From Micromonospora pallida (GTDB taxonomy: Bacteria; Actinomycetota; Actinomycetes; Mycobacteriales; Micromonosporaceae): a DNA stretch of 64,000 nucleotides. Made by a program: the position numbers and the translations under genes. Where the stretch lies: NCBI RefSeq assembly GCF_900090325.1, contig NZ_FMHW01000002.1:2604001-2668000 (forward strand), read 5' to 3'. The notes beneath the pieces are model-generated. The model saw only the letters and a list, made by a program, of their open reading frames with translations. It was not told the DNA's origin and ran no database searches. Positions 9,201 to 53,223 of this stretch are shown one piece after another. Each line of letters begins with the position of its first letter. Positions within the stretch are counted from its first letter, which is position 1.

Positions 9201-12200
9201 CTGGTGAGGACCACCAGCCGGGACCCGCCGGTGTGCCGCTCGGCGGCGAGCCAGCCCTGGAGTACGGCGAGGACCTCGGCGAGCAGGTCGTGCACCGGGC
9301 CGGGATCGGTCGCCGCGGCACCGGCCACCGGGAACAGCACGACGTCGGGCACCCCGGCGTCGAACAGCGCGTCGAGGCCGGCGTGCCGGACGGCGGCCAG
9401 GCCGGACGGCAGCGGCGCGGGACGGTCGCCGAGCACCGCGCAGGTCGTGCCATCGGCGGTGCCGGCGCCGCCGACGTGCCGGGTCCAGTCGAGGCGGAAC
9501 AGCGAGCGACGCCACGGGGACCCACCGGAGGTGAGTTCCCCGGCCGGCAGGGGCCGCAGCACCAGGGTCCCGACCCGGGCGACCGGCTCGCCGGCGGCGT
9601 CCGCGACCAGCATGGTCACCGTGTCCGGGCCGGTGGGGGTCAGCCGTACCCGCAGCGTGTCGGCGCCGTGGGCGGACAGCGTCACGTCCGACCAGGAGAA
9701 CGGTAGCCGGGCCTGGCCGGGGTCGACGATGCCCAGCCCGACCGCCTGCACGGCGGCGTCGAGCAACGCCGGGTGCAACCAGTACCCGCCGGCCTCGTCG
9801 GCCGCCGGCTCGGGCAGCGCCACCTCGGCGTACACGTCGGTGCCGACCCGCCACGCGGCCCGCAGCCCCTGGAAGGCCGGGCCGTAGGCGAACCCGGCCT
9901 GCGCCGCCCGCCCGGTCAGTTCCGACACGTCCGCGGCGGTGGCGCCGGTCGGCGGCCAGTCCGCCAGCGTGGCCCCGCTGTCTCCCGGCTCCGGGGCGAG
10001 CAGGCCGGTGGCGTGCCGGACCCACAGGTCGTCGGTGCCGGACCGGCGGGCGTGGACCGTCAGCTGCCACGCCCCGCCGCCGGTGCGTTCGGCGGCGACC
10101 TGCACGTCGACGCCGCCGGACTCCGGCAGCACCAGCGGCGCCTCCAGGGTCAGCTCGGCGAGCCGGTCGGCGCCGACCTCCGCGCCGGCCCGCAACGCCA
10201 GTTCCACGAACCCGGTTCCGGGGAAGAGCACCACGTCGCGTACCGCGTGCTCGGCCAGCCAGGGCTGGCTCTCCACCGACAGCCGGCCGGTCAGCGTCAC
10301 CTCGTCGCCGTCGGCCGAGCGGAACACCGCGCCGAGCAGCGGGTGGCCGGTCGGGGTCAGCCCGGCGGCGGTCACGTCGGCGGCGTGCGGCAGGGGCAGC
10401 AGCCAGTAGCGCTGACGCTGGAACGCGTACGTCGGCAGGTCGACCGGCACGGGCGGGCCCTCGAACAGGGCCGTCCATTTCACCGGCACGCCCCGGGCCC
10501 AGACGGTGGCCGCGGCGGCCAGCGCGCTCGCCGCCTCGTCCTGGTCGGCACGCAGCATCGGGGCGCACACCGCCTGGTCCGAGCCGACGATCTCCTGGGT
10601 CAGCGCGGAGAGCACCCCACCCGGACCCACCTCGACGTACGCGCCCACCCCGAGCTCACGCAGGGTGGCCACGGCCGCGTCGAAGCGGACCGTGTCGCGG
10701 ACGTTGCGCAGCCAGTACGCCGGGGAGCGCACCTCGTCGGGGTCGAGCACCGCACCGGTCACGGTGGAGACCACGGGGATCCGGGGCGCCGCGAAGGTCA
10801 ACTGCCCGAGCACGTCGCCGAACGCGTCGAGCATCGGGTCCATCCGGGCGGAGTGGAACGCGTGGCTGACCCGCAGCCGCCTGGTGTTCCGGCCGAGGGC
10901 CGCGAAGTGCCCGGCGACCGCCAGCACCGCGTCCTCGTCACCGGAGACGACGACGGACTCCGGGCCGTTGACGGCGGCCAGCCCGGCACCGGCCGCCTCG
11001 CCGGCGGTGGTCAGGTGGTGGCGGACCTCCGCCTCGGTGGCGCGGATGGACACCATCGCGCCGCCGGTGGGCAGCGCCTGCATGAGGGTGCCCCGGGCGG
11101 CGACCAGACGGGCGGCGTCCGGCAGCGACAGCACACCGGCGACGTGCGCGGCGGCCACCTCGCCGACCGAGTGTCCGGTCACGAAGTCCGGCACGACGCC
11201 CCAGGACTCGACGAGCCGGTAGGTCGCCACCTCGACCGCGAACAGCGCCGCCTGGGCGTACCCGGTGCGGTCGAGCACCTCGGCGGGACCGTCGAGCACG
11301 CCGCGCACGGGCCGGTCGAGGTGCCGGTCCAGTTCCACGCAGACGGCGTCGAAGGCCGCGGCGAAGACCGGGAACGCAACGTACAGTTGCCGGCCCATCC
11401 CGATGCGCTGGGCGCCCTGCCCGGTGCAGAGCACGGCGACCCGGGTGGGGCTGGCGACCCCGCGCCGCACGGACGCCGCCGGGACGCCGTCGGCGATCGC
11501 GCCGAGCCCGGCGGCCAACTCGTCCCGGTCGGCCCCGAGCACCACCGCCCGGTATTCCAGGACCGATCGTCCGGCGGCGAGGGCCCGACCCACCGCGGCC
11601 GGCGCGACGTCGGGGTGGTCGGCCAACCAGGAGCGCAGCCGGTCGGCCTGGGCGCCGAGCGCGACGGCGCTGCGCGCGGAGACGACCCACGGCAGCGGAT
11701 CGGGTCCGGCGACGGCGTCGGTGTCGGCGGCCGGCTGCGGCGCGGGCGGAGCGGCCTCGACGACGACGTGGGCGTTGGTGCCGCTGACGCCGAAGGAGGA
11801 GATGCCGGCCCGCATGGGTCGGGACCCGCGCGGCCACGGGCGCGGCTGGCGGAGCAGGCTCACCGCGCCAGCCGACCAGTCGACGTGCGGGGACGGCTCG
11901 TCGACGTGCAGGGTCCGCGGCAGAACGCCGTGGCGCATCGCCATGACCATCTTGATCACGCCGGCGACGCCGGCCGCGGCCTGGGTGTGCCCGAGGTTGG
12001 ACTTGATCGAGCCGAGCCAGAGGGGCCGGTCGTCGGTCCGGCCCCGGCCGTAGGTGGCGAGCAACGCCTGCGCCTCGATGGGGTCACCGAGGCGGGTGCC
12101 GGTGCCGTGGGCCTCCACCGCGTCCACGTCGGCCGGGGAGAGCCGGGCGTTCGCGAGGGCCTGGCGGATCACCCGCTGCTGCGACGGGCCGTGCGGCGCG

Positions 12201-18747: not shown

Positions 18748-19033
18748 CAACCCAGCCCATCGCGATGCACGGCGGAGACTCGACGTAAGCGACGGTACGA
18801 ATGGCAGAAGTCTCAGGCGACACCTGTATCTGTCGTTCGGCTCGCTCGGCCGAAAGCCACGAGAATCCCTATCTGCGGGGAGAAGTTATTGGGTGTGCGC
18901 GAGCGCGGACAACCCCTAACCAGGCAACGGGCCAGCTAGGGGTGTCCGCCCCCGACCCGCCGCACTAGCGTCGCCTCGACCGGGTCTGACACGATCCGGT
19001 CGGTAATCGCAGTCGCCGGAGGGACCGCCAGGG
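18748..19033. promoter_or_regulatory. Divergent promoter region, PKS2 / type II thioesterase, with inverted CCCCTAAC motif pair
   Basis: This 286-bp region separates two divergent genes. At 18912-18920 it reads ACCCCTAAC and at 18935-18944 GCTAGGGGTG, so the motif ACCCCTA(A/G)C occurs as an inverted pair. The pair lies about 90-120 bp before the thioesterase and 165-195 bp before PKS2. The same motif occurs before PKS1 and before the AHBA synthase gene. No clear -35/-10 could be assigned by eye. Confidence 0.5.
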
Positions 19034-37320: not shown

Positions 37321-37533
37321 GTCGTCACCACATCCGTCCCTCGCCGTAACGGCCCAAGTCTTCCCAGCGACCTCCCGGTGACCTACCCCTGTCACCCCCT
37401 AAGTGCTCCCCAGATCCACCCGCCGAGCCGGTGACCAGGCGCGCCGGCGGCTGATGATGGGGTGGCCCGAGGACCGTCGCACCCGTGCCCGCCCCGCCCA
37501 CCAGTCGAGGTGCCGTCGTTGGAACGCTCCTGG
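37321..37533. promoter_or_regulatory. Divergent promoter region PKS1 / 37534 gene with 10-bp spaced CCCCT motifs
   Basis: The 213-bp region contains CCCCTGTC at 37386-37393 and CCCCTAAG at 37396-37403, starting exactly 10 bp apart. They lie 66-83 bp upstream of the PKS1 start codon. The word matches the array before the AHBA synthase gene. Confidence 0.5.
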
Positions 37534-39565: not shown

Positions 39566-40261
39566 TCAGGCGACGGACCCGGCCGGGCAGTGGGCGAGCA
39601 GTTCCTCCGGCTTGTGCGCGACCAGGTCAGGAGCGGCGGCGAGCAGAGCCTCGACGTCCCCGCCGTGCCAGGTGGTGGCGACCGTAGTCACCCCGGCGTC
39701 CCGTCCGCTGGTCAGGTCGGTGATCGCGTCACCGACCATCATCGCCTGGTACGGGGGCACGCCGAGCAGGTCCAGCGCCCGCAGCACGATGTCCGGCGCC
39801 GGCTTCGGACGGGGCACCTCGTCGGAGCCGATGACGTGGTCGAACAGGTGGAGCACGCCGAGCAGGTCGAGCAGCGAGCGGGCCCGGGGGCCGCTCTTGC
39901 CGGTGGCGATCGCCATCCGGATGCCCCGTTCGCGCAACTCCTCCAGCGTCTCGCGGACCCCCGGGAACAGGGGCACCTGGTGGGCGAGTCGGTAGCTCTC
40001 CCGGACGAAGGGCTCCTCCATCTCCAGGGGCAGGCCCATCAGCCGCATGATGTCCGGGAAGTACCGGCCCATGTGCTTGTTGTACTCCTCGAACGGCGCC
40101 GGCCCCGGCCCGACCGCCTCGGCGTAGGCGACGCTGAACGCCGCACGCATCACGGCCGAACTGTCGACCACGACCCCGTCGAGGTCGAAGACGACCGCCC
40201 GGATCGGGCCCGGCCGCGCGGGGACTGTGTCGACCTCGAGGGTGGACGGCGGATGGCTCAT
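39566..40261 (-). CDS. HAD-family phosphatase (AHBA pathway, RifM-like)
   Basis: This 231-aa HAD hydrolase has motif I DLDGVVVDS (nucleophile and acid Asp), motif II IATGKSG, Lys in RPKPAPD and motif IV MMVGDAITDL. In AHBA clusters the RifM-type phosphatase works with the RifL-type oxidoreductase and AHBA synthase in forming kanosamine from a nucleotide sugar (literature knowledge of the rifamycin system). It is the last of three genes read leftward from the AHBA synthase promoter, 31 bp after the oxidoreductase gene. Substrate cannot be read from sequence alone; the phosphoglycolate phosphatase-like fold is generic. Confidence 0.9.
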   Translation of the reverse strand: MSHPPSTLEVDTVPARPGPIRAVVFDLDGVVVDSSAVMRAAFSVAYAEAVGPGPAPFEEYNKHMGRYFPDIMRLMGLPLEMEEPFVRESYRLAHQVPLFPGVRETLEELRERGIRMAIATGKSGPRARSLLDLLGVLHLFDHVIGSDEVPRPKPAPDIVLRALDLLGVPPYQAMMVGDAITDLTSGRDAGVTTVATTWHGGDVEALLAAAPDLVAHKPEELLAHCPAGSVA

Positions 40262-40292: not shown

Positions 40293-41417
40293 TCACCGGT
40301 CGAGGGTTCCCGCCAGCGCGTACGTCGGCGCGGTGGGCCGGGCGCAGCGGTAGATTCGTTCGATGACGTCGATGGTCCGGCGGGCCTCGGCCGCCGCCAC
40401 GCCCCGGCTGGTCGGCGCGGCGAGCAGCTCGGGCAGGGCGTCGAGCTGACGGTCGTACTCGGTGCCGACGGGTTCGACGGGCAGCGGCAGGTGGACGGTC
40501 TGTCCGTCGCGCGTCCGGGTCAGCACCGGTGTCGGCGCCCGGTTGGGGCTGAACCCGAACGTGCAGTTCAGGGTCGCCTGGCCGGCGGTGCCGTGCACGG
40601 TGATGGTGGTCCGGTCGAGTGCCTCGTGCGACGCCCAGCAGGCATGCAGGCCGGCGGAGGCGCCGTCGGCGGTGAGCAGGAACGCGCGGGCGGTGTCCTC
40701 GACGTCGCCACGGGCCCGGTCGGCGTCGGTGGCCGTGCCGCGCCACGCCGCCGCGGCGGCGTCGTCGTTGACGAAGTCGTCGGAGACGCTGCCCACGGCG
40801 TGGACCACCGGGGACGGGCCGAGCAGCGGCAACACGGTGTCGAGCAGGTGCCAGCCGAGGTCGACCAGCGCGCCGCCGCCGGAGAGCTCACGGCGGGTGA
40901 ACCACCCGCCGGCGTCGGGCACCCCACGCGCCCGTACCCAGGCCACGTCGACGTGCCGGACGGCACCGAGGTCGTCGGTCGCCCCGACCAGCGCGCGGAC
41001 ATCCGCCCGGTAGCGGGCGGCGCTGCCGGCGAGCAGCACCGCCCCGCCGGTCCGTTCGGCCTCGGCCAACTGCTCGGCCTCGGCGGAGGTCAGGCAGACC
41101 GGCTTCTCCAGGAACACCGGTACGCCCCGGCGCAGCAGCCGGGCCGCCACGTCTGCGTGCAGGTGGTTGGGCACGGCGACGACCACCAGGTCGACCGCCC
41201 CGGCGGGGATGTCGTCGACGTCGGCGTACCCGGTCGGGACCTGGTGGGCGGCGCGGGCCCGCTCCCGCGCGGCCGGGTCGGGGTCGATCACGGCGGCCAC
41301 CGAGAACCGCGGGTGCCCGGCGAGCCGGGGCAGCCAGATCTCCCGTCCCGCCCAGCCCAGGCCGGCCACGGCGACCCGGACCCGCCCCGGTGTGGCGGGC
41401 GACGGCGACGCGGTCAT
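40293..41417 (-). CDS. Gfo/Idh/MocA-family NAD(P)-dependent oxidoreductase (RifL-like)
   Basis: This 374-aa protein has the N-terminal Rossmann fold (VAVAGLGWAGREIWLPRL), the conserved EKPVCLTSAEAE segment with the family Lys, and ALVDLGWHLLDTVLPLLG with the conserved Asp and His. In the rifamycin pathway RifL is thought to oxidise C3 of UDP-glucose for transamination by RifK. Its ATG (41417) overlaps the AHBA synthase stop (ATGA), so expression is coupled one-to-one with that enzyme, which fits a shared step. The ORF is open further upstream but the overlap start is the natural choice. Confidence 0.92.
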   Translation of the reverse strand: MTASPSPATPGRVRVAVAGLGWAGREIWLPRLAGHPRFSVAAVIDPDPAARERARAAHQVPTGYADVDDIPAGAVDLVVVAVPNHLHADVAARLLRRGVPVFLEKPVCLTSAEAEQLAEAERTGGAVLLAGSAARYRADVRALVGATDDLGAVRHVDVAWVRARGVPDAGGWFTRRELSGGGALVDLGWHLLDTVLPLLGPSPVVHAVGSVSDDFVNDDAAAAAWRGTATDADRARGDVEDTARAFLLTADGASAGLHACWASHEALDRTTITVHGTAGQATLNCTFGFSPNRAPTPVLTRTRDGQTVHLPLPVEPVGTEYDRQLDALPELLAAPTSRGVAAAEARRTIDVIERIYRCARPTAPTYALAGTLDR

Positions 41418-42577
41418 TCGCCGAGGACGTCGGCGAGCACGGCGGCGATCTGGTGCATCTGCTCCTCGGTGCCGAGCAGCGTGCGGTGGTGCAGCCAGAT
41501 GCAGTCGGCGTGGATCTGCTCGACGTTCGGGCAGCGGGCGGCGATCTGGTCGACCGTCTCGTCCGGGGCGCCGGCCAGCCAGAAGCCCTCGCACCGGTAG
41601 ATCGCGCGGAAGGCGACGAAGGCGGGGATGCCCCGGGCGATCAGCTCGTCCACCACGACCCGGCGGCGCTGCTCCCCGATGCCGGGCACCCGGAACATGG
41701 CCATGTAGTGCGGGTTGCGGTCGCCCCGGTCGTCGCGGCCCTGCGGCACCACGCCGGGGATCTGGGCGAGCAGGTTCGCCAGCAGCGGCCAACGCTGCTC
41801 ACGCAGTTCGATCTGGCTGTCGAGCCGGGACAGCTGGGCCCGCAGGACGGCGGCGCTGAACTCGTTCATCCGGTAGTTCGAGCCGGTGGTGCGGTGGAGG
41901 TAGTCGCGGTCGGTGCGCGGACGGCCGCAGCTGTGCACGAGGAACGCCCGCTCGTACAGCTCCTGGTCGGGGAAGAGCACCGCGCCGCCCTCACCAGCGG
42001 TCATCAGCTTGCCGTTCTGGAAGCTGAACGCGGCCACCGACCCCAGCTCGCCGACGCGCCGGCCCTGCCACTGCGCGCCGTGGGCGTGCGCGGCGTCCTG
42101 GAGGATCGCGACCCCGGCGTCGGCGGCGATCTTGTCGAGGGCGTCCATGTCGGCCATCTGCCCGGCCATGTGGACCGGCATGATCACCCGGGTCCGGTCG
42201 GTGATCGCGGCGGCGACGGCCTCCGGCTGGATGCAGTACGTGTCGAGGTCGACGTCGACCGGTACGGCCACCGCGCCGAGCCGCTGCGCGGCCAGCGACG
42301 ACGAGATGAACGTGAACGCCGGCACGATCACCTCGGTGCCCGGCCCGACGCCGAGCACCTCCAGGGCCACCTCGAGGGCGTGGGTGCCGTTGGTGACGGC
42401 GAGCGCGTGGGGCGTGCCGTGGTACGCCCCGAACTCCGCCTCGAAGGTGTCGACCTCGCTTCCACCGACCCGCCACCACTGGCCCTGCTCCAGGGCGCGG
42501 ACCAGGCCGGCCCGCTCCTCGTCACCGAACTGCGGCCACTCGGGGAACTCCGGCACGCTCGCCGACAGACCACTCAT
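41414..42577 (-). CDS. 3-amino-5-hydroxybenzoic acid (AHBA) synthase
   Basis: This 387-aa PLP enzyme of the DegT/DnrJ/EryC1 family dehydrates and aromatises aminodehydroshikimate to AHBA, the ansamycin starter unit; the same enzyme class also acts as a transaminase early in the pathway. The PLP lysine is Lys190 in SFQNGKLMTAGEGG. Conserved cofactor residues are seen in TNGTHALEVAL, FTFISSS and LQDAAHAHGA. Length matches RifK (388 aa). ATG 42577 (MSGLSASVPEFPEWP) has GGGAAGTGGGA upstream. It heads the leftward operon with the oxidoreductase and phosphatase genes and is the best marker that this is an ansamycin-type (or AHBA-derived) cluster. Confidence 0.97.
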   Translation of the reverse strand: MSGLSASVPEFPEWPQFGDEERAGLVRALEQGQWWRVGGSEVDTFEAEFGAYHGTPHALAVTNGTHALEVALEVLGVGPGTEVIVPAFTFISSSLAAQRLGAVAVPVDVDLDTYCIQPEAVAAAITDRTRVIMPVHMAGQMADMDALDKIAADAGVAILQDAAHAHGAQWQGRRVGELGSVAAFSFQNGKLMTAGEGGAVLFPDQELYERAFLVHSCGRPRTDRDYLHRTTGSNYRMNEFSAAVLRAQLSRLDSQIELREQRWPLLANLLAQIPGVVPQGRDDRGDRNPHYMAMFRVPGIGEQRRRVVVDELIARGIPAFVAFRAIYRCEGFWLAGAPDETVDQIAARCPNVEQIHADCIWLHHRTLLGTEEQMHQIAAVLADVLGE

Positions 42578-42912
42578 TGATGTCCCACTTCCCAATCCAG
42601 ATGGAACGGCGGTTCGCTGGCCGTTCGCCCGACGGGCGGCGGACCACCCCGCGACCAGGACACCGGGCACGACCCGTACCGCCCGGTCGGTTCTCGGGGC
42701 GGACGCCACCGGCGATCGCGGCGACGCACCTTGGCTCGCGGTGGACGCTAACCGACCTGACCGGCGGCTCAACTCCCCTAACGGCCCCTAACCGCCCCTA
42801 CCCACCCCTTAGTTCGCGCGGGCGGTGCCGGCCACCACCGTCGGGCGAGGCGATACTGCCGGGGACCCGTCGTCGAACCCGTCGGGACGCCGACCGCTCC
42901 GCGAGGTGAACC
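42578..42912. promoter_or_regulatory. Divergent promoter region of the two AHBA operons
   Basis: This 335-bp non-coding region lies between the AHBA synthase start (minus) and the aminodehydroquinate dehydratase start (plus). The only structure seen is the phased CCCCTAAC array at 42775-42814. No riboswitch-like fold or small ORF stands out. Confidence 0.75.
42775..42814. promoter_or_regulatory. Four direct repeats CCCCTAAC-type at exact 10-bp spacing (putative operator)
   Basis: CCCCTAAC (42775), CCCCTAAC (42785), CCCCTACC (42795) and CCCCTTAG (42805) start exactly 10 bp apart, one helical turn, so a regulator could bind side by side on one DNA face. The array is about 100 bp before the plus-strand operon and about 200 bp before the AHBA synthase gene. 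Related motifs occur at 37386-37403 and 18912-18944. Regulator family is unknown; SARP or LAL-type activators are candidates. Confidence 0.6.
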
Positions 42913-43344
42913 GTGTCCAACGTGCTCCTGCTCAACGGCCCCAACCTGGGCATTCTCGGTCGGCGGGAACCGGAGATCTACGGCACGGACACCCTGGCCG
43001 ACATCGAGCGGGCGGTCGCCGAGGAGATCGCGCCACGCGGCTGGCAGGTGACGGCGCAGCAGCACGACTGTGAGGGCGCCCTGATCCGCGCCATCCAGGA
43101 CAGCTACGACACGGTCGGCGCGATCGTCAATCCCGGCGCGCTGATGATCGCCGGCTGGAGCCTGCGGGACGCCCTGGCCAACTACCCACGCCCGTGGCTG
43201 GAGGTCCACCTGTCCAACGTGTGGGCCCGGGAGACCTTCCGGCACGACTCGGTGCTCGCCCCGCTCGCCAGTGGAGTGATCGTCGGGCTCGGGTCGCTGG
43301 GCTACCGGCTGGCCGCCCGCGCCCTCGTCGCCACCGTTTCCTGA
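42913..43344 (+). CDS. Aminodehydroquinate dehydratase (type II DHQase fold, RifJ-like)
   Basis: This 143-aa protein removes water from aminodehydroquinate to give aminodehydroshikimate. GTG 42913 follows GCGAGGTGA. Type II dehydroquinase marks: NGPNLGILGRREPEIYG (catalytic Arg/Tyr loop), INPGA→VNPGA, and EVHLSNVWARETFRHDS with the catalytic His. The substrate segment usually reading HTSVALRDA is here MIAGWSLRDA, and the NxHAREEFRHHS segment has Trp and Asp in place of two His. These changes may fit the amino substrate. It is first gene of a rightward operon, followed after 66 bp by the DoxX-like gene. Confidence 0.9.
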   Translation: MSNVLLLNGPNLGILGRREPEIYGTDTLADIERAVAEEIAPRGWQVTAQQHDCEGALIRAIQDSYDTVGAIVNPGALMIAGWSLRDALANYPRPWLEVHLSNVWARETFRHDSVLAPLASGVIVGLGSLGYRLAARALVATVS

Positions 43345-46146: not shown

Positions 46147-47530
46147 AGATGCTTCTATAACTGTCAAGGGGTGGTTCCTGCCGTGTGGGCGGCGGTCAGG
46201 GTCCGGAAGAGCTGCCTGCTGATGTAGCGCTTGAGGTTGCGCATGACCTCGCGTTTGGTGCGGCCTTCGGCGGTGCGGCGGGTGACGTAGGCGCGGGTGC
46301 GGGGGTCGTGGCCCATGCGGACCAGTGCGACGGTGTAGAGGGCTCGGTTGAGGCGTCGGTCGCCGCCGCGGTTGAGCCGGTGTCGGGTGGTGTTGCCTGA
46401 CGAGGCCGGTAGTGGTGATGCGCCGGCCAGGGCGGCGAACGCGGCCTCGGAGCGGATGCGTCCGGGGTGTGACCAGGCCAGTAGGACGGTCGCGGCGACG
46501 ACGGCGCCGACGCCGGGCAGGTCGAGCAGTTGCGGCGCCTGCATGGTGACGGCTTTGTGCAGGGTGGTGTGGTTGGCGGCGAGTTCGGCGTCGAGGGCCC
46601 GGATGCGCTGGGCCAGGCGGATGGCCTCGGCTCGGCAGACGGCCAGGGTCGGATTCTCGTCTTGGGTGCGCCAGGCCGCGATGGTGGTGATGGTCGTGGT
46701 GGTCAAGGCGCGGCGGGCGTCGATGCCGAGGTTGACGGTGCGCAGCAGGGCGGTCAACGCGTTGACGGCTCGGGTGCGTTCGCCGCTCATCTGTTCGCGG
46801 GCGACGGTCAGGACCCGCAGGGCGGTGCGGGTGCCGGTCGCGCGGGGCCAGCGCAGCTCGTTGATGTTCAGGCCGCGGGTTGCTTGGGCCATCGCGATGG
46901 CGTCCAGGGCGTCGCTCTTGCCGTGGCGGCGCCTGCTGATGGCCGGGACGTCGGGTGCTTCGGCAACGGTCAAACCGGTTGCGGTGAGCTGTTCGGTGAA
47001 GGTGGCGCCGTAGGATCCGGCACCGTCGATGACGATCAGCGTTGTGGTGTCCTGGGTGTGACGCTGGATCCAGGCGGTGGCGCGGCGTAGCCCGGCCGGG
47101 CTGGTCGGGAACTGGGCCTGCTGCTGGACCGCGCCGGTGCTCGCGGTGATCAGCGCGAGGGTGTGTGAGGCGGCGTGGGTGTCCACGCCGATGACGAAGT
47201 CGTAGTGGTCTGCGACGATGGCCATGGCGGCGTCCTGCCTTTCCGGGGAGACGTCGTGGCGGCGCCGGCCCGGGATGTGCTCTCGCGGCAGGACTGTGAT
47301 GGGCCACGACCCGCGGCCACGGGTCGGGCAAGCTTCTGATCAAGCCACCGAGAGGGGCAGGGCCGGCGCCCCGACCTCGAGCCGGGTGGGCAGATCTCAC
47401 TGAGAGCACCCTGCGGGGGCCACCATTTTCATGAGCCACACCCAGGCCCGCGATCATGACGCCGACCCTGCCAGCCAGCCCCAGGCCAGCCAAGAGCAAC
47501 CTTCACAGCCAGTTTCATGCTGCTAGCAGA
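46147..47530 (-). mobile_element. IS110-family insertion sequence (ends approximate)
   Basis: The transposase gene plus about 300 bp of non-coding DNA upstream of it, as expected for IS110 elements, which lack clear terminal inverted repeats. The left limit is placed where the regulator remnant stops; the right limit is uncertain and set before the palindrome at 47545. Confidence 0.7.
46164..47225 (-). CDS. IS110-family transposase (DEDD recombinase)
   Basis: This 353-aa transposase has the N-terminal DEDD RuvC-like domain: GVDTHAASH (Asp15), VIDGAGSYG (Asp67) and KSDALDA (Asp105, Asp108). The C-terminal Tnp_20 domain has LLDLPGVGAVVAATVLLAW and SGNTTRHRLNRGGDRRLNRAL with the expected conserved Ser. 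The length is that of intact family members, and no frameshift is seen, so it may be active. Confidence 0.95.
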   Translation of the reverse strand: MAIVADHYDFVIGVDTHAASHTLALITASTGAVQQQAQFPTSPAGLRRATAWIQRHTQDTTTLIVIDGAGSYGATFTEQLTATGLTVAEAPDVPAISRRRHGKSDALDAIAMAQATRGLNINELRWPRATGTRTALRVLTVAREQMSGERTRAVNALTALLRTVNLGIDARRALTTTTITTIAAWRTQDENPTLAVCRAEAIRLAQRIRALDAELAANHTTLHKAVTMQAPQLLDLPGVGAVVAATVLLAWSHPGRIRSEAAFAALAGASPLPASSGNTTRHRLNRGGDRRLNRALYTVALVRMGHDPRTRAYVTRRTAEGRTKREVMRNLKRYISRQLFRTLTAAHTAGTTP

Positions 47531-52103: not shown

Positions 52104-52985
52104 TTACACACCAGAAGACGGATTAGCTTCGGTAGCTACAAGCGTGGGCCCACCGCCCTTGGGCGACGCAGAGCGAGTGCGGTCCGGCGAAGAGCGGGCT
52201 GACAACAATGACGTGCGAGGCGTCACCGTGGGGGTTTGGCGGAGCCACCAGGCGACGGCGGCGGCGCGGCTGGGGACGTCGGCTTTGACGAAGACGCCTT
52301 CGAGGTGTTTGCGGATGGTTCGTGGGCTGATACCGAGTTTGCGAGCGGCCTGGTCGTTGGTGTGTCCGGTGGCGATGAGCGCGAGCACCTGGTTCTCGCG
52401 TTCGGTGAGGGTGCAGTGGCGTGGTGGCGCTACGGGCAGGCTTGCGCCGATCTTGCCTTGAATCGCGGTGATCTGGGCTTGGTAGTCCAACGCCGTGGCG
52501 ATGACGTCGCGAACGGGGTGAAGCGCGCGGGTCTCACGATCGGAGAAGTCGTGAAGCCTGCGGGTCAGGCCAATGAGCACCAGGTCCTCGTCGGTGATGC
52601 GTGGTGCCATCACCAGCAGGTGGCGCATGCCGTACTGGGCGAACACTTCCCGGTAGATGGATGTCTGCCGGAAGCGGTTGAAGGTCATGAAGTCACTCGT
52701 GCGGTACGGCCGCGCGTCGCCGGTGGCGAGAAGGTTGCCGACGTACGGGTCGTCAACGGACAGCGTCATCCATTGGTCGATCTCGCCTGCGGACAAGGCG
52801 TCGGGTTCCCCGGCCATGGTCACCGATGGCGCCTGGGTCCGCCAAGCGCGGCAAATGTCGATACATACACAGTCCGCGCCAACGGCCTGGAGTAGCCCTG
52901 CGGCCAGGTCATCCACGAACGGCTCGTTGTTGATGATGGCGTGCGCGGCGATGAGCGCGGCACGCAACAGACCTGCCTCGTTCAC
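52104..52985 (-). CDS. LuxR-family transcriptional regulator
   Basis: This 293-aa regulator has an N-terminal GAF/PAS-like sensor part (aa 1-190) and a C-terminal LuxR helix-turn-helix (LTERENQVLALIATGHTNDQAARKLGISPRTIRKHL, about aa 205-240; only key residues matter: E-x-E, G-x-T/S-N, S-x-R-T-V/I). GTG 52985 follows AGGGGAACC and is favoured over an opening at 53018. It is divergent from the secreted protein at 53224. It lacks the large ATPase part of LAL regulators. Whether it controls either biosynthetic locus is unknown. Confidence 0.87.
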   Translation of the reverse strand: MNEAGLLRAALIAAHAIINNEPFVDDLAAGLLQAVGADCVCIDICRAWRTQAPSVTMAGEPDALSAGEIDQWMTLSVDDPYVGNLLATGDARPYRTSDFMTFNRFRQTSIYREVFAQYGMRHLLVMAPRITDEDLVLIGLTRRLHDFSDRETRALHPVRDVIATALDYQAQITAIQGKIGASLPVAPPRHCTLTERENQVLALIATGHTNDQAARKLGISPRTIRKHLEGVFVKADVPSRAAAVAWWLRQTPTVTPRTSLLSARSSPDRTRSASPKGGGPTLVATEANPSSGV

Positions 52986-53223
52986 GGCGGTTCCCCTTGA
53001 GGCTGCCCCCTGTGGCAAGTATGAGCGGAGGGTGATGTCGTGTAAAGCGCCGCGTTTGCCCAGTAGTCAAGGTGGCGGAACAGGCACTTTCCTCCACCGA
53101 GCTGCCCCTTCACGATGGGCGCAGAAGGGCGAGATGCCCCCGGAAACAGTGGATTCCTGGTGGGCGCTTCAACGGACCAAAGCCACCGTACCGATCCCGG
53201 AAAACGTCGAATTGGAGGTAGAA

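Follow-up and report, generated by a model that had tools for sequence, protein, structure and literature searches.

Phased AGGGG boxes upstream of rifK as candidate sites for a cluster-encoded LAL regulator in Micromonospora pallida

The gap between the divergent AHBA operons of Micromonospora pallida holds four short direct repeats, which raises the question of whether they are regulator sites and, if so, which promoter and which regulator they serve. We addressed this in a stretch of 64,000 nucleotides (hereafter, the window; contig positions 2604001-2668000), in the surrounding cluster and in related genomes. By inspection of the sequence, CCCCT occurs four times at exact 10-bp steps, starting at 42775, 42785, 42795 and 42805, between rifK (start codon 42577, minus strand) and rifJ (start 42913, plus strand). 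The first-pass annotation had reported four octamers with this periodicity on one face of the helix, and both observations hold, the steps in the window being one helical turn apart. The units and the adjacent genes are as follows.

42775-42782, unit 1, CCCCTAAC
42785-42792, unit 2, CCCCTAAC
42795-42802, unit 3, CCCCTACC
42805-42812, unit 4, CCCCTTAG
42775..42812, minus strand, four putative activator boxes in tandem, reading AGGGG on the strand of rifK (sequence, genome uniqueness, genus conservation)
41414..42577, minus strand, rifK homologue encoding AHBA synthase, at the head of the minus operon (Pfam DegT_DnrJ_EryC1; relatives)
40293..41400, minus strand, GFO/IDH/MocA oxidoreductase, rifL-like (Pfam; 5' limit approximate, inside ORF 40293-41792)
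39566..40261, minus strand, HAD phosphatase, rifM-like, AHBA synthesis associated protein (TIGR01454 above cut-off)
42913..43344, plus strand, type II dehydroquinase, rifJ-like, divergent operon (Pfam)

Pfam searches around the array identified a DegT aminotransferase, an oxidoreductase, a HAD phosphatase, a dehydroquinase II, a ROK kinase, a shikimate dehydrogenase and a DHQ synthase, confirming AHBA-pathway-type genes on both sides of it. Long minus-strand ORFs extend from contig position ~2463941 to 2641395, based on crude gene calls and joined stretches. The two that were scanned are both PKS genes by Pfam, the first with an AMP-binding loading domain, and the remaining ones are presumably PKS genes as well. 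The ~195-kb cluster is likely of the quinolidomicin type, to judge from its size, its loading domain and the genus to which the relatives belong; quinolidomicin is built with AHBA. Passages of one report describe a quinolidomicin-type cluster of >200 kb, widespread in Micromonospora, with a CoL/ACP loading module (PMC8698034). An IS110-family transposase gene (DEDD_Tnp_IS110, Transposase_20; window 46164-47225) adjoins the AHBA genes near the cluster end, and a gene for a LuxR-type regulator of 304 aa (window 52104-53018) lies beyond them. The latter was set aside as the regulator of the array, being taken as outside the cluster and having a different recognition helix.

Searching the window for CCCCT-N5-CCCCT-N5-CCCCT with up to two mismatches gave four matches, three from the array and its flank and the fourth at 37386, where a pair of boxes is present; shuffled sequences gave a mean of 0.43, and 0 of 100 shuffles reached four. 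With up to one mismatch, this triple had only two matches in the whole genome of 7,762,826 bases, both within the array (reversed control, 1). The triple is thus unique to the array, and the random recurrence through the genome that the first-pass annotation had named as speaking against a site was not seen. The shorter pattern CCCCTA-N4-6-CCCCT had eight paired matches in the whole genome, seven of them (at four places) inside the quinolidomicin-type cluster, and its reversed form had 13. The eighth pair (contig 1053231; L093 7231) lies outside the cluster, before a subtilase gene and beside a third LAL gene with another helix, and may be due to chance. Across the class (296 genomes), the triple at 10- or 11-bp steps was detected in 10 genomes and its reversed control in 17, with no enrichment; the array as a genome-wide marker pattern was therefore rejected, and the triple is informative by position alone.

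A rifK match at E <= 1e-120 was found in 22 of the 121 Micromonospora genomes. Nineteen genomes carry a close copy (at least 84% identity), and six more copies have 71-73% identity, three of them in genomes that also hold a close copy. The triple (10- or 11-bp steps) was present in 23 of the 121 genomes, comprising all 19 with a close rifK and 4 of the 102 others (Fisher 1.3e-18), and in all 19 it lies <300 bp upstream of rifK; one of them (G313) has a second match elsewhere in the genome. The reversed triple gave 7 matches in 4 of the 121 genomes, and no paired CCCCT was found in the ~4-kb loci of the six ~72% rifK paralogues. In most arrays of the genus, three or four units follow each other at 10-bp steps; an 11-bp step occurs between units 1 and 2 in two loci (L014, L129) and precedes the fourth unit in three (L008, L010, L012). 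In L125 (G394), the third unit is degenerate and an intact second array lies close by. Some Micromonospora strains carry an additional CCCCTA array before rifK, oriented like the first (L009 9424-9434, L122 3045, L125 2907). Alignment of 29 sequences (22 unique rows) showed that the conserved parts are the boxes and a GGACG(C/G)TAAC block holding the -10.

Beyond the genus, we profiled the rifK loci of relatives from several actinomycete genera (the best 80 of 97) for at least two CCCCT spaced by 10 or 11 bp in the 350 bp preceding rifK (hereafter, the array test). The test was passed by 52 of these 80 best-matching AHBA loci, all 52 with CCCCT antisense to rifK, in one orientation, and by 41 of the 69 loci outside the 11 close Micromonospora loci. 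The controls passed in 21 of 4000 shuffles and in 26 of 3772 other windows of the same loci (Fisher 3e-77 for 52/80 versus 26/3772, with related loci counted apart). Chance or GC richness as the origin of the array was rejected by the shuffles, the windows elsewhere and the position. The comparison with related AHBA clusters that the first-pass annotation had proposed thus returned a conserved array, and its suggestion that the AHBA promoter region contains an activator-type site is supported by conservation and position; judged from sequence, the array is very probably genuine, a conserved set of activator sites at the promoter of rifK.

The remaining 28 of the 80 loci failed the array test, and degenerate arrays could be recognized by eye among them in L044, L057, L073 and L079. 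No array was found in seven Frankia rifK loci (L019, L020, L023, L024, L026, L030, L035; 76-78% identity); three Frankia loci compared side by side have a similar upstream region of their own. Upstream of rifK, AGGGG-AGGGG distances of 10, 11 and 12 were represented by 43, 31 and 34 pairs, and those of 20-23 by 57 pairs, compared with 1, 1, 4 and 15 pairs on the reversed sequences. Given this spread over 10-12, exact 10-bp phasing is a lineage feature, mainly of Micromonospora.

The putative promoter elements in the gap are listed below.

42767..42772, minus strand, candidate -35 element of the rifK operon: TTGAGC, on the downstream side of the proximal box and 2 nt from it (sequence)
42745..42750, minus strand, candidate -10 element of the rifK operon: TAGCGT, 24 nt past the proximal AGGGG (retained across the alignment as TAGCGT/TACCGT)
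42852..42857, plus strand, possible -10 on the rifJ side, GATACT (sequence; AAGACT/GATACT alike in relatives by eye)

On the rifK strand, the window reads AGGGG-AG-TTGAGC-16 nt-TAGCGT, so the proximal box abuts the putative -35, where a class II activator would sit. A TANNNT starts 23-26 nt past the rifK-proximal AGGGG in 51 of 56 array loci (the 52 that passed plus L027, L055, L060 and L070, added by hand for 9- or 12-bp steps or TAGGGG), the exceptions being L027, L029, L036, L037 and L052, and two additional TANNNT occur at other offsets within 0-54. Orientation and distance tie the array to the rifK promoter, one half of the divergent promoter named in the first-pass annotation; any role on the rifJ side is hypothetical. 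Scanning 42560-42930 for consensus promoters gave no sigma-70-like site, which fits an activator-dependent promoter, yet is no evidence for one by itself.

The repeats could also be read as a DNA structure, as the minus strand with its four G-tracts fits the canonical four-tract formula of a G-quadruplex in the window. Four tracts, however, occur in only 10 of the 56 array loci, and an A, which a quadruplex does not need, precedes all 165 runs of at least four G in the arrays (two per locus by the choice of loci, and all 53 others also). Single boxes elsewhere in the cluster also argue against it. The G-quadruplex was mostly rejected on the tract count and the constant A, and we consider it or another structure highly improbable.

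If the array is a protein-binding site, the cluster offers two candidates, and no regulators other than these two LALs were found among the cluster proteins scanned (part of the ORFs).

contig 2453816-2456653, LAL1, cluster-encoded LAL gene (AAA_16 and GerE)
contig 2456961-2460014, start codon uncertain, LAL2, 1017-aa ORF (AAA_16 and GerE above cut-off)

LAL2 has the N-terminal AAA/ATPase and C-terminal LuxR HTH of a LAL and is of the ~900-1000 aa class; its gene lies ~187 kb from the array in the same cluster. It was detected in all 10 relatives fetched, with 70-88% identity. The match begins only at residue 50-76 in eight of the ten, and at residue 1 in the other two, so the called start, under which the site at 2457076 counts as coding, is perhaps too early. 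Upstream of LAL2, GCAACCCCTA is found in this genome as well as in nine of the ten relatives, the tenth being cut by the stretch end.

The recognition helix of LAL2 is STVEQHLT. Outside Micromonospora, an LAL is present in 12 of 45 array loci within the DNA fetched, and 10 of these 12 have a LAL2-like STVEQHLT helix, with another helix in L038 and L058. L079, counted as array-less, also encodes an LAL with a LAL2-type helix. Matches to the triple pattern led to ten neighbourhoods, of which L114 is a relative's rifK locus; in the other nine (one only 4.3 kb), a TVEQHL-type LAL was found in L113 and L117 and none in seven. We consider it likely that the array serves as a set of boxes for the cluster LAL with the TVEQHL helix, most likely LAL2. 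Alternatively, LAL1 or a host-wide regulator may bind the boxes, with LAL2 acting elsewhere. LAL1 is encoded beside LAL2 in 8 of the 10 relatives (the best matches in the other two are LAL2 itself at the stretch edge) and has a helix related to that of LAL2, but this is the variant AIEQRL, and the LALs beside arrays in other genera mostly match LAL2, so the alternative appears unlikely.

The same geometry was reached starting from the LAL helix. A degenerate pattern of the TVEQHLT helix matched 55 places in 42 of the 296 genomes (reversed control, none), and 40 of them were retrieved with at most 20 kb per place, for a total of 752,770 bases; two neighbourhoods (L222, L247) are without a TVEQHLT-helix ORF, and two pairs look like near-duplicates (L257/L260, L233/L236). 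TAGGGG-to-TANNNT distances within 0-59 nt numbered 43, with 14 at 23, 10 at 24 and 1 at 25 nt; the reversed sequences also gave 43 distances, 4 of them at 23-25 nt. In 21 of 24 unique matches, TAGGGG is followed by T. One or two boxes with the -10 geometry were found in 16 of the 40 helix-selected neighbourhoods and in none of the other 24. The geometry occurred in 5 of 40 reversed controls (Fisher 0.005) and in 0 of 20 other LuxR/LAL loci of the own genome (Fisher 4e-4), the latter being supportive rather than final since these controls come from one genome and have fewer TAGGGG per base.

These results also bear on the SARP-like pattern suggested in the first-pass annotation. Tandem sites of 10-11 bp are also bound by SARPs and by response regulators of the OmpR/PhoB type; either would suit the layout of direct repeats, and array and SARP heptamer repeats are alike in being phased on the helix. 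SARP heptamers differ in sequence from the AGGGG box and repeat at 11 or 22 bp, whereas the array has 10 bp here and 10-12-bp steps overall. For the OmpR/PhoB type, passages of two papers describe PhoP boxes in Streptomyces as 11-nt direct repeats (PMC6784220) and the response regulator CrsR as binding the promoters of asm43-44 and asm45-47, in which no motif was recognised (PMC12623338). However, the regulators found among the scanned cluster ORFs are LALs, with no SARP domain detected; boxes also stand singly at this distance from a -10, a search starting from the LAL helix finds this geometry too, and the spacing outside Micromonospora is 10, 11 or 12 bp. The SARP-like description was thus not upheld, and a regulator of either family is improbable.

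According to passages of PMC7105598, polyketide clusters commonly have LAL proteins as their pathway-specific activators. The available passages on ansamycin clusters describe comparable LAL activators: GdmRI and GdmRII are required for geldanamycin PKS expression (PMC6784220), and Asm8, a LuxR family member (LAL-type in a cited title), activates AHBA formation (PMC12623338). Those passages give no LAL binding sequence, whereas one is proposed here. In open-access text, we found neither a consensus for LAL sites nor a printed description of a CCCCTA/TAGGGG site for an LAL or AHBA regulator, in agreement with the first-pass annotation, which knew of no ansamycin regulator site of this form; in two Streptomyces papers with these letters, they belong to primers, e.g., the sole CCCCTA of PMC7480387. 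An earlier description is conceivable in the subscription literature on SlnR, NemR, MilR, AveR, RifZ or Asm8.

Passages of two papers report RifZ, a LuxR-family regulator (PMC5787919), and GlnR as direct activators at the rifK promoter of Amycolatopsis mediterranei (PMC7062684), comparable to the role proposed here. The array test failed in five Amycolatopsis loci (L063, L071, L083, L084, L087) and passed in L077. RifZ is small and not an LAL, and its motif is CTACC-N8-CATGG. This motif was found in 0 of 24 loci searched, all without the array.

Known LAL sites are of more than one kind: passages of PMC9628970 give the MalT box as GGA(T/G)GA, short and asymmetric, and report that SCO6993 binds palindromes for which a consensus could not be predicted, a kind of site other than the AGGGG array. 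MalT, of the E. coli maltose regulon, resembles the case here in being an LAL protein with a short asymmetric box, but the box sequence differs, nothing here suggests a sugar signal, and this is an actinomycete biosynthetic cluster. The tandem boxes of MalT adjoin the -35, and in the usual model MalT protomers occupy them side by side; of such an arrangement, spacing alone, mostly 10-12 bp, is seen here. We infer that LAL2, rather than LAL1, binds the array and activates the promoter cooperatively. It would recognize tandem TAGGGG-like boxes, read on the rifK strand, the proximal one abutting the -35, 23-26 nt before the -10, in a class-II-like arrangement. Further boxes one helical turn apart may place more protomers side by side and raise occupancy.

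Boxes also occur across the cluster. Of its 19 TAGGGG sites, 7 have a TANNNT at 23 or 24 nt, the chance of a TANNNT at 23-26 nt being 0.07% per position over the whole, mostly coding cluster. The box and -10 geometry is seen at rifK and six other cluster promoters, listed here with the box pair of the loading-module PKS gene.

contig 2452282, box and TANNNT before the gene, AMP-binding
contig 2543503, box and TANNNT before the gene
contig 2596324, box and TANNNT before the gene
contig 2597651, box and TANNNT before the gene, phosphoesterase, site just inside the called ORF
18913..18918, minus strand, single box TAGGGG for the PKS gene (by Pfam) starting near 18750 (contig 2622750)
18883-18888, TAACTT of this PKS gene, downstream of its single box
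18937..18942, plus strand, single box TAGGGG for the thioesterase gene (by Pfam; 19034, contig 2623034)
18966-18971, TAGCGT of the thioesterase gene, downstream of its single box
37386..37400, minus strand, pair of boxes with a 10-bp step preceding the loading-module PKS gene (Pfam: PKS and AMP-binding domain)

The loading-module PKS promoter has AAGACT, not TANNNT, at 37357-37362, 23 nt past the proximal AGGGG. Scanning nine relatives' loci showed its box pair in five; of the remaining four, L009 and L075 probably end before its position, and L015 and L017 have no pair in the scanned stretch. In front of LAL2 and by the transporter locus, the boxes are in the opposite orientation, without TANNNT at 23-26 nt, which counts against the proposed reading. 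Boxes of this geometry, one to three in number before PKS and tailoring genes, could act as a cluster-wide switch. The sequence and fixed -10 distance, tied to one helix, provide a testable code for AHBA and other clusters. Whether TAGGGGT(T/G), ~21-22 nt and TANNNT form the code of the TVEQHL LAL subclass in actinomycete clusters, with box number setting the strength, is evenly balanced in our view; if true, the regulons of silent clusters would become readable from sequence. Three CCCCT boxes at L094 12096-12121 (contig 2462096-2462121), with no TANNNT at 21-28 nt, lie upstream of a 352-aa minus-strand ORF (10984-12042) that adjoins an ABC-2 permease gene, and point towards this ORF.
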